From an uncultured Erysipelotrichaceae bacterium (lineage in GTDB: Bacteria; Bacillota_I; Bacilli_A; Erysipelotrichales; Erysipelotrichaceae), in contig CADBEA010000033.1 of assembly GCA_902793635.1 (NCBI GenBank), positions 1 to 34,485 of the forward strand: DNA of 34,485 bases, given 5' to 3'. Within the stretch, counting starts at the first letter, position 1, and each line of letters opens with the position of its first letter. Positions 12,438 to 15,534 of this stretch are shown piece by piece. The translations under genes and the position numbers were made by a program. Below the pieces are notes generated by a model. That model was not told where the DNA came from, did not search any database, and saw only the letters and a program-made list of their open reading frames with translations.

Positions 12438-12465
12438 TTGACCGCCGGTCAGAAAGTGGTATGAT
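12438..12465 (+). promoter_or_regulatory. Extended -10 promoter of the riboswitch-ABC unit
   Basis: TTGACC (12438-12443) and TATGAT (12460-12465) are 16 bp apart, and TGG directly before the -10 box gives an extended -10 element. Transcription should begin near 12472, exactly at the 5' end of the RNA structure. A perfect palindrome, TGACC-GCC-GGTCA (12439-12451), overlaps the -35 box and may be an operator. Confidence 0.8.
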
Positions 12466-12471
12466 ATGGAC

Positions 12472-12623
12472 AAGCAATGAGGGAGTAACAGGCACACTGT
12501 GCGGCAGGCCGTCAGCCCGATGAACATCCGGTCTGCATGAAATTGTGAGACTCATCTGCGGCTTTGCTGCAGGAGTTCCGTACGGCCCAGATACAGCAAA
12601 GCAGAACTGTATCTGTTTTCTTT
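12472..12623 (+). promoter_or_regulatory. Candidate yybP-ykoY (manganese) riboswitch with expression platform
   Basis: The closing stem P1 pairs ATGAG (12477-12481) with CTCAT (12551-12555). Inside it the 5' loop reads GGAGTAAC (12482-12489) and the 3' loop TGTGAGA (12544-12550), the same positions and near-identical bases as the yybP-ykoY loops that read GGAGUAG and GCAAGA between a closing stem. A CCGTCA segment lies in the middle, and GCAGGCCG can pair with CGGTCTGC to make an internal arm. Downstream, GCTTTGCTG (12561-12569) is a perfect complement of CAGCAAAGC (12594-12602), an antiterminator that competes with the terminator at 12588-12619. The class was assigned by eye; a covariance search would settle it. 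It precedes an ABC exporter operon. Confidence 0.7.
12588..12623 (+). terminator. Riboswitch-controlled intrinsic terminator
   Basis: CAGATACAG and CTGTATCTG form nine perfect pairs around a ten-base loop, followed by TTTTCTTT. The left arm and loop also belong to the antiterminator pairing with 12561-12569, so the two structures exclude one another. Confidence 0.85.
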
Positions 12624-12676
12624 ATATGAAAATGAGTATCATTAAAGAAAACTGTTCCTGAATAACTGGAGGTTAT

Positions 12677-13393
12677 ATGCTGCAAATTGAAAATCTCGTC
12701 AAAAGTTTCGATAACAAGGAAATCCTGCATGGTATTTCCCTCAACGTCAAGGACGGAGAAATCTTCGGATTCATCGGTCACAACGGCGCCGGCAAAACAA
12801 CAACGATCCGCTGCGCGGTTGGTATCATTCCTTTTGAAAGCGGAAAGATCCAGATTGACGGAAGGAATATTCTCGATGATCCGATCTGGTGCAAAAGCGT
12901 CACAGCTTTCCTGCCCGACAATCCCGACCTCTATGAGAATCTGACCGGTATCCAGTATCTGAACTTTATCGCTGATATCTTTGAGATGACAGCGGAAACA
13001 CGTATGGACAAGATCACGGCGATCGGCCGTGAACTGGAAATATATGACAGTCTGGGCGATCAGATCAAGTCACTGTCGCACGGCATGAAGCAGAAGGTGG
13101 CTCTGATCAGTGCCTTCATGCACGATCCGCGTCTGCTGGTGCTGGATGAGCCGTTTGTCGGCCTTGATCCGAAAGCATCCTTCATTATGAAAAACAAGCT
13201 GCGTGAACTTTGCGACAACGGCGGCAGTGTATTCTTCTCTTCCCATGTTCTGGAAGTTGTCCAGAATCTGTGTGACGAGATCGCCATCATCAGGCAGGGC
13301 AGTATCATTATGAACGGCAAGACGGAAGAGATCCTGCAGTCCGGTGAATCGCTGGAACAGATCTTCCTCGATACGGAGAACATCGCATCATGA
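12677..13393 (+). CDS. ABC transporter ATP-binding protein (ABC-2 exporter type)
   Basis: The 238 residues are one complete nucleotide-binding domain: Walker A GHNGAGKT (34-41), signature LSHGM (133-137, a variant of LSGGQ), Walker B LLVLDEP (153-159), D-loop GLDP and the switch histidine in FFSSH (His190). It resembles the ATPases of two-gene ABC-2 export systems. TGGAGG stands before the ATG. The stop overlaps the permease start by 4 bp. It is the first gene after the riboswitch terminator, so its transcription should depend on that switch. If the switch senses Mn2+, the pair may export a metal or protect the envelope from it, but the substrate cannot be read from the sequence. Confidence 0.93.
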   Translation: MLQIENLVKSFDNKEILHGISLNVKDGEIFGFIGHNGAGKTTTIRCAVGIIPFESGKIQIDGRNILDDPIWCKSVTAFLPDNPDLYENLTGIQYLNFIADIFEMTAETRMDKITAIGRELEIYDSLGDQIKSLSHGMKQKVALISAFMHDPRLLVLDEPFVGLDPKASFIMKNKLRELCDNGGSVFFSSHVLEVVQNLCDEIAIIRQGSIIMNGKTEEILQSGESLEQIFLDTENIAS

Positions 13394-14949
13394 AACGGAT
13401 GCTGACACTTACCAAAACGCAGCTGCTGAATCTGTTCTTTCAGAGCCGCTCGGGAAAGAAATCGAAAATTCCGCCCATCGTGATCAGCTGTCTGGTCATG
13501 TTCGGACTTTCCCTGTATTACAGCTGGATCTTCGCAGATATGATGGAAACCCAGGCCCATGCTGTTCCGTATATGGTCAGCATTCTCGGCACGGTCATTA
13601 TCTTCATGAGCGGTATCTCGGGATCACAGGGCATGCTGTTCGGTTTCAAGGATTATGACAGCCTGATGGCACTGCCGGTGACAGAGCGTGATATCGTGAC
13701 GTCCAAGATCGTCGTCTACACGTTCATGCAGTATCTGTATTCCTTCTTCCTGGTGATTCCGGCCATGCTTATTCACGGCTACCGGATCAGTGCCAGTGTG
13801 TTCTACTATTTCCGGGTCATTCTGTGTTTCCTGCCGTTCCCGCTTCTGCCGATGGTTCTTTCCGCTCTGATCGGCATCGCTTTTCAGAAACTGACAGCCG
13901 GCAAGCGCTATGGCAAACTGCTGCAGAACGGCCTGACCATTGCCTTTATTGCCCTGGTATATTATTTTTCCTTTTCGTTTGGCGCTTCGGCCGGCAGCGG
14001 CCAGCCGGGCATGCAGGTGGGCGGCATCGCCGCTTTCCTGCCCAGTGCGAAATGGTACGTGGAGGGTGTCATCAATGCCGATATCCCGAAGCTTCTGCTT
14101 TTGTTCGGCATCGGCATTGCCGTCTATGTTCTCTTTATCCTGATCTATTCGCGTACGATCATCCGCGTCACCGCCCAGGGCATGCAGGGTTATCATGTCG
14201 CCAACTTCCGCCTGAAGAAGGTGAAACGTGCCGGTTCGCTCGGCGCTTTGATGCGTCAGGAATGGCAGCGTTATTTCAATAACTTCACATATTTCCTGAA
14301 TACCTCAATGGGGATGATCGTTCTGATGATCATGTCGATCTATGTAATCTTCATAGATAATCCGATCAAGGATCTGATCACCGAACTGATGATAGAAAGG
14401 GGAGACGTGCTGGCTAAAATCTGGCAGACGTTCATTCTGGCCATTTCGTGTGTCGGCAGTATGACCTGCACGACCGGTGTGTCAATTTCCCTGGAAGGTA
14501 AGAGTCTCTGGATCCTGAAGTCGATCCCGGCTGATGTCAAAGAGATCTTCCTGGCCAAGATCATGGTCAATGTGATCCTGATCATGGTACCGAGCACACT
14601 GTCGCTGCTGGGTCTTGGCATCGCTTTCCATCTGCCGCTGCTTTACTATATTGTGGGTATTGTGATGCTGGCAGCCACTGCTCTGTTCATCAGTATGCTG
14701 GGTCTGCTGATCAACCTGCGCTTTCCGAAACTGGAATTTGACAGGGAAGTCGTCGTCATCAAACAGTCTCTGTCGGCGTTTTTGAGCATCATGATTCCGA
14801 TGTTCCTGGCGGTAGGCATCATGATTCTGTTCTTCATTACAAATATGGAATACTTCTACTGGATCATGGCGTTTTTTATCGCGGCTGATCTCATCCTGGT
14901 CTTCCTGCTGCTGAAATACGGCACCGAACGGTTCAGAAGACTCGCATAA
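13390..14949 (+). CDS. ABC-2 type transporter permease, 519 residues
   Basis: A large polytopic membrane protein, with about ten to twelve hydrophobic segments (for example LVMFGLSLYYSWIFADM near 36-52 and the closing FFIAADLILVFLLL). No nucleotide-binding motif is present, so it should pair with the upstream ATPase in an exporter of the ABC-2 or putative-exporter class. A cytosolic basic segment (HVANFRLKKVKRAG, near 272-285) and the conserved-looking SLEGKSLWILKSIP stretch (near 368-381) resemble other 500-plus residue Bacillota permeases of this type. It overlaps the ATPase gene by 4 bp and ends the operon. The substrate is unknown; the riboswitch is the only clue. Confidence 0.88.
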   Translation: MKRMLTLTKTQLLNLFFQSRSGKKSKIPPIVISCLVMFGLSLYYSWIFADMMETQAHAVPYMVSILGTVIIFMSGISGSQGMLFGFKDYDSLMALPVTERDIVTSKIVVYTFMQYLYSFFLVIPAMLIHGYRISASVFYYFRVILCFLPFPLLPMVLSALIGIAFQKLTAGKRYGKLLQNGLTIAFIALVYYFSFSFGASAGSGQPGMQVGGIAAFLPSAKWYVEGVINADIPKLLLLFGIGIAVYVLFILIYSRTIIRVTAQGMQGYHVANFRLKKVKRAGSLGALMRQEWQRYFNNFTYFLNTSMGMIVLMIMSIYVIFIDNPIKDLITELMIERGDVLAKIWQTFILAISCVGSMTCTTGVSISLEGKSLWILKSIPADVKEIFLAKIMVNVILIMVPSTLSLLGLGIAFHLPLLYYIVGIVMLAATALFISMLGLLINLRFPKLEFDREVVVIKQSLSAFLSIMIPMFLAVGIMILFFITNMEYFYWIMAFFIAADLILVFLLLKYGTERFRRLA

Positions 14950-14991
14950 GACAATGCCAGAAGGTATAATGATTACGGAGGAATAAGTGTG

Positions 14992-15534
14992 ATGAAAGAC
15001 TTAAAAGGAACAAGAACCGAACAGAATCTCGCAGCTGCTTTCGCCGGTGAAAGCCAGGCCCGCAACAAATACGACTACTGGGCAAGCAAGGCCAAAAAAG
15101 AAGGCTATGAGCAGATCGCTGAAATGTTCACGCTCACCGCTCTGAATGAGAAGGAACATGCCAAGATGTGGTTCAAATACCTGCAGGGCGGCGCCATCAA
15201 ATCGACACCGGAGAACCTGCTCCAGGCAGCCGAAGGCGAGAACTACGAATGGACAGACATGTACAAGGAATTCGCTGAGATCGCTGACGAGGAAGGCTTC
15301 CCGGAAATCGCGGCCCAGTTCCGCGGTGTCGGCGGCATTGAAAAAGAACATGAAGAGCGCTACAGAAAACTGCTGGCCAACCTGAACAGCGGCGAAGTAT
15401 TCGTCCGTCAGGATGAAGTGACATGGCAGTGCCGCAACTGCGGTTATACAGTAACCGCCAAGGAAGCACCGGAAGAGTGTCCGGTATGCGCGCATTCCAG
15501 AGCTTATTTCGAGATCAAGCGCGATAATTATTGA
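14992..15534 (+). CDS. Rubrerythrin
   Basis: A cytosolic peroxidase that reduces hydrogen peroxide in oxygen-sensitive bacteria. In its 180 residues the ferritin-like diiron domain carries Glu20, the pair Glu53/His56 in NEKEH, Glu93 or a neighbour, and Glu117/His120 in GIEKEH. The C-terminal rubredoxin-like domain has C-X2-C pairs at 147/150 and 163/166 for a single iron. I use the ATG at 14992, which gives the usual MKDLKGT start; a GTG at 14989 would be better spaced from GGAGG (14977-14981) and adds one residue. A TATAAT at 14965 is present but lacks a -35 and would give a very short leader. Presence of this protein points to an anaerobic or microaerophilic lifestyle. Confidence 0.96.

Follow-up and report, generated by a model that had tools for sequence, protein, structure and literature searches.

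A leader RNA of the yybP-ykoY type without helix P4 upstream of an ABC exporter in an uncultured Erysipelotrichaceae bacterium

The locus and its leader

The window, meaning the whole stretch of 34,485 nucleotides analysed, makes up a single contig of a genome of 2.43 Mb. It holds a 200-nt leader, flanked on one side by a divergently oriented gene for a type IV leader peptidase and on the other by a gene pair for an ABC ATPase and an ABC-2 permease (12677–14949; Table 1). The permease matched PF16949 below threshold, and several of its homologues (∼27–35% identity) passed that threshold. A rubrerythrin gene starts 39 nt 3′ of the permease gene, and a TATAAT-like box lies between the two; the rubrerythrin gene may be co-transcribed and co-regulated with the ABC pair or may use its own promoter. 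The same gene order, with rubrerythrin a short way past the permease, was found in L061, a near relative of the ABC locus from a "Solobacterium sp." assembly of goat ileum.

A first-pass annotation, made from the letters alone, had described a closing stem AUGAG/CUCAU around two loops, an antiterminator that excludes a nine-pair terminator, and an extended −10 promoter. All of these elements were recovered where it had placed them. Within the RNA, GGAGUAAC occupies 12482–12489 and UGUGAGA 12544–12550, and the terminator stem is followed by UUUUCUUU. Transcription would start near 12471–12473.

Table 1. Features of the leader and the genes downstream of it.
Feature	Position	Strand	Basis
Extended −10 promoter: TTGACC (from 12438), 16-nt spacer, TG before TATGAT (12460–12465)	12438–12465	+	Sequence; consensus-like
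Perfect palindrome TGACCGCCGGTCA, overlapping the −35 element	12439–12451	.	Recurs next to TetR genes and in promoters of further leaders
Aptamer, P4-less yybP-ykoY-type RNA	12474–12558	+	Model R1, 85.8 bits; model R2, 69.8 bits, E 2.3e-17
P1.1 5′ strand AUGAG, pairing with 12551–12555	12477–12481	+	Covariation
L1 GGAGUA; A10 equivalent at 12484	12482–12487	+	Invariant in alignment A1
P2 hairpin	12492–12502	+	
P3 hairpin; L3 loop UCAGCCC at 12512–12518, A41 equivalent at 12514	12504–12536	+	Site numbering from PMC6754395, PMC9190785
7-nt single-stranded linker in place of P4	12537–12543	+	Hairpin count, genus against canonical relatives
L1 3′ half (GAGA) and P1.1 3′ strand CUCAU	12544–12555	+	Alignment
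Predicted anti-P1 hairpin (OFF state), sequestering the P1.1 3′ strand and the antiterminator strand	12550–12576	+	
Antiterminator, 12561–12569 with 12594–12602, nine Watson-Crick pairs	12561–12602	+	Complementarity enriched across loci
Intrinsic terminator, nine-pair stem 12588–12596/12607–12615 and U-rich tail	12588–12623	+	
ABC transporter ATPase, 238 aa	12677–13393	+	PF00005, E 9e-25
ABC-2-type permease, 519 aa	13390–14949	+	PF16949, sub-threshold
Rubrerythrin	14989–15534	+	

The palindrome TGACCGNCGGTCA overlaps the promoter of the window leader and those of about seven more leaders in the RNA family. It also adjoins a TetR-family gene in five relatives (L213, L217, L225, L226 and L230, near 1501) and precedes small membrane-protein genes. 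It is probably the operator of a TetR-family regulator with a membrane-related regulon. Its place in the promoter, together with its occurrence beside TetR genes in relatives, suggests double control of the leader by the palindrome and the RNA, though the palindrome is degraded in L061. An inverted repeat resembling a Fur box, AATGAGTATCATT, lies at 12631–12643 between the terminator and the ATPase start; it too is degraded in L061 and was set aside as a functional site.

Family membership and downstream genes

The first-pass annotation had assigned the leader to the yybP-ykoY family and proposed the RF00080 covariance model as a check. RF00080 gave no match to the window RNA even at E≤10, nor any match in the whole window genome, which counts against our reading. 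The evidence is weak, because the validated E. coli mntP switch also scores below the cut-off (41.6 bits against 45). The score test is insensitive and not exclusive.

When the genus was searched at the DNA level, the core of the leader turned up ahead of genes of quite distinct kinds. Covariance model R1 was built from 28 such leaders. Model R2 was built from 20 leaders of other, non-ABC genes, with the window RNA and its two orthologs left out, and it still scored the window RNA highly (Table 1). R1 matched in 62 of 70 genomes of the genus; single genomes had up to eight matches, and the window genome had four. In the order Erysipelotrichales, to which Solobacterium belongs, 199 of the 295 genomes had a match.

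We then counted covariation in P1 and P3 on 102 sequences aligned to the R1 structure; the original MAFFT alignment agrees. Double-changed pair cells numbered 196, where the shuffles averaged 46 and none of 500 reached the observed value, and the signal was lost when the partner strand was slid by 1–3 columns. Covariation in relatives, a point raised in the first-pass annotation, is therefore present. The folding energy of the single leader sequence is ordinary (z of −0.8 and 0.0), as would be expected of a common attenuator or terminator that resembles yybP-ykoY RNAs by chance. That explanation is refuted by the leave-out E-value, the presence of the core before unrelated genes and the covariation, and we give it next to no credence.

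Sub-threshold RF00080 matches in the genus are largely the same as R1 matches (for example G205:C56, G190:C96, G103:C223 and G194:C71), and several sister RNAs linked to mntP were matched in this way. R1 in turn recovers RNAs detected by RF00080 in other families of Bacilli, where the genes behind them read as MntP, P-ATPases, Na+/Ca2+ exchangers and CitMHS carriers. Comparative sequence data thus confirm that the leader is more than a chance structure, and they support a cis-regulatory RNA of the yybP-ykoY type.

The genes behind this RNA were surveyed at 115 loci of the genus, with families scanned on representatives and the remainder assigned by sequence clustering. Na+/Ca2+ exchangers (PF01699) follow at 24 loci, SPFH/flotillin/HflK/QmcA proteins (PF01145) at about 21, Na/Pi symporters (PF02690 with PhoU) at 19 and MntP (PF02659) at 13. 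A membrane protein of 558–588 aa follows at 12, ABC exporters at nine, CitMHS carriers (PF03600) at seven and Ca-type (P2A-type cation) P-ATPases at two; other genes follow at the rest. The 558-aa membrane protein of L149 (1350–3023, minus strand), the one representative of its family scanned, had no Pfam or NCBIfam match; at L149 its gene is followed by an SPFH (QmcA-like) gene. At L187 and L191 (match at 1501), from other genera of the family, the proteins encoded behind the RNA resemble PiT-type phosphate transporters by eye; with NptA, that would make two types of phosphate transporter among the targets. Unrelated T-box leaders lie near these RNAs at L042 (1796–2035) and L171 (310–560).

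MntP and P-type ATPases are classic yybP-ykoY targets. These metal-exporter genes stand behind sister RNAs, and an ABC exporter behind the window RNA. To our knowledge, Na/Pi symporters, Na+/Ca2+ exchangers and flotillins are not established Mn2+ genes, and their abundance speaks against our reading. So does the presence of mntP elsewhere in the window genome without a leader of this kind; expression of mntP there is independent of this kind of switch. A structured leader of convergent sequence, unrelated to yybP-ykoY and answering membrane stress, phosphate stress or another signal that is not a metal, would account for the many membrane-scaffold and phosphate targets and for the blindness of RF00080 to the window RNA. 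We regard it as very improbable, since the two metal-site loops agree with those of yybP-ykoY RNAs, mntP lies behind sister RNAs, and intermediates bridge RF00080 and R1.

The first-pass annotation had presented the ABC exporter as a new type of target and had asked whether the RNA precedes its homologues in related genomes. The combination of the RNA and an ABC-2 pair of the window type occurs in only three genomes: the window's own, G155 (L061; leader identity 95%) and G197 (80%). No R1 match was found upstream of more distant homologues (∼24–36% identity) in 29 further loci of the bacterial family, a few of them incomplete; these belong to other genera. The exporter is one of many unusual targets and not a lone exception; among them is a second, unrelated ABC family with a PF16962 permease and a C-terminal Rce1-like domain (L113). 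ABC exporters therefore appear to have joined the regulon at least twice.

The putative metal site and the missing helix P4

In crystals, Mn2+ is bound by N7 of an invariable adenosine, within UCA41AU43UC in L. lactis and ACA48U49ACU52 in X. oryzae (PMC6754395). The Mn2+-site nucleotides of the L. lactis RNA are G9, U39, C40, A41, U44 and C45 (PMC9190785). The window RNA has the L1 internal loop of yybP-ykoY RNAs, GGAGUA/RAGA with A10, closed by P1.1 and P1.2. Its L3 loop keeps U39, C40, A41 and C45; positions 42–44 differ from both L. lactis and X. oryzae, which counts against our reading. The adenosine equivalent to A41 is present in all 114 parsed L3 loops. Placing A41 at the purine by which mntP RNAs and the others differ would have implied a changed metal contact; that reading was dropped, as the papers put A41 at the invariant A deeper in L3.

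Within the genus, the L3 loop ACAURCU was found in 13 of 13 mntP RNAs (the X. oryzae loop ACAUACU in 12, ACAUGCU in one) and in 0 of 101 others; the Fisher p of 2e-17 overstates this split, because related sequences are counted as independent and RNA and gene may be co-inherited. Outside the genus, a few mntP-linked RNAs read ACAUACU, ACAUGCU or ACAUAAU, and the parsed leaders of P-ATPases, exchangers and CitMHS carriers have loops unlike those. The split raises the alternative that the non-MntP RNAs (L3 UCANCMC, the window RNA included) share the scaffold and sense another divalent ion such as Ca2+, with Mn2+ left to the ACAURCU mntP RNAs. It would suit the abundance of Na+/Ca2+ exchangers, Ca-type ATPases and phosphate symporters among the targets. 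Sherlock and Breaker considered it probable that certain yybP variants respond to divalent ions other than Mn2+, which would explain genes unfit for Mn2+ (PMC7266159). On the other side, A41 is kept in every parsed loop, which argues against a changed ion, and the split may be mere co-inheritance of RNA and gene. The validated Mn2+ sensor of L. lactis, which precedes a P-type ATPase, itself has a loop of the non-MntP kind, UCAAUUC. We consider a change of ion unlikely. The literature searched contained no published Ca2+ riboswitch; nor did it contain a link between the motif and flotillins, the target lists of the founding 2015 papers lying outside it. Sensing of Na+, suggested by Na+-coupled targets, was set aside once MntP and P-ATPases appeared among the targets.

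Known yybP-ykoY structures have four helices, P1–P4, around a four-way junction (PMC9190785, PMC11087558). P4 is absent from the window RNA, which weighs against our reading. Of the first-pass assignment, the yybP-ykoY-type RNA with its antitermination platform is supported, and the full architecture of the family is not. In 111 of 115 RNAs of the genus, exactly two hairpins (P2 and P3) lie between the L1 halves, with a median single-stranded tail of 7 nt. Most canonical RNAs of other families of Bacilli have the third hairpin. As the known structures are four-way, the window RNA is a three-way-junction form. L199, from the same bacterial family, keeps P4, and L195, L200 and L201, from outside it, also seem to have none, so the loss extends beyond the genus. 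On the simplest reading, P4 was lost within or near the order.

Compared with the L. lactis yoaB-type RNA, the window RNA shares L1, the four L3 nucleotides, P1.1 as switch helix and the antitermination platform, but differs in its three-way junction, the changed L3 positions, the failure of RF00080 and the ABC exporter downstream. Compared with the mntP type of X. oryzae and E. coli, it has the same L1, and its mntP-linked sisters carry ACAUACU; its own L3 differs, and P4 is present in the E. coli RNA. The NiCo riboswitch is another metal-sensing junction RNA before transporters (PMC6754395). Unlike the window RNA it has no L1–L3 docking loops, and Rfam gave no match at the window leader.

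Switching and significance

With the nascent RNA folded to 12604 and P1.1 enforced, the antiterminator had a probability of 0.998. When the P1.1 5′ strand was blocked, this fell to 0.30, with the mutually exclusive anti-P1 hairpin at ∼0.61. In these calculations P1.1 formation excludes the terminator, as in an ON switch. However, in the full-length equilibrium fold the terminator wins even with P1.1 formed, a result against our reading. Since the terminator is favoured at equilibrium either way, the decision is kinetic, and the switch must act during transcription.

A recognizable terminator was found in 96 of the 115 leaders. In 10 of them the P1.1 3′ strand doubles as the 5′ arm of the terminator, so that ligand-stabilised P1.1 means ON. 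In the other 86 the arm is separate, and its complementarity to the spacer averages 8.5 nt, compared with 5.8 nt for a shuffled spacer.

We propose that a metal, which we infer to be Mn2+ together with Mg2+, would bind between L1 and L3 and stabilise P1.1. Formation of P1.1 would keep CUCAU from the anti-P1 hairpin and leave 12561–12569 free to capture the terminator 5′ arm, and the ABC exporter would be transcribed. In the absence of metal, folding of the anti-P1 hairpin would be followed by that of the terminator. The exporter might serve in metal export or in adaptation of the envelope to metal stress.

Our reading, at a probability of about 0.72, is that the leader acts as a riboswitch that turns transcription ON, belongs to the yybP-ykoY (Mn2+) superfamily and has a compact P4-less form, an enlarged regulon and Mn2+ as the presumed ligand. 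It is based on the R2 E-value, the spread through genus and order, the covariation, the MntP and P2A-type ATPase loci and the matches shared by RF00080 and R1. The metal-site match to L. lactis, the P1.1-dependent antiterminator probability, the 10 terminators built from P1.1 and the spacer complementarity also support it.

The standard model overlooks an RNA that two thirds of the genomes sampled from this order carry, in up to eight copies each. Its form suggests that natural RNAs of this type can do without the four-way junction. The mntP-linked and other RNAs of the genus are matched natural pairs that bear on the suspicion, already in print, of ions other than Mn2+ as ligands of some yybP-ykoY RNAs. 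If the UCANCMC RNAs did change ion, they would be a variant class over a calcium, phosphate and membrane-scaffold regulon, and their ACAURCU sisters would stay with Mn2+. The finding ties flotillin-type scaffolds, Na/Pi symporters, Na+/Ca2+ exchangers and ABC exporters to one putatively metal-sensing RNA.
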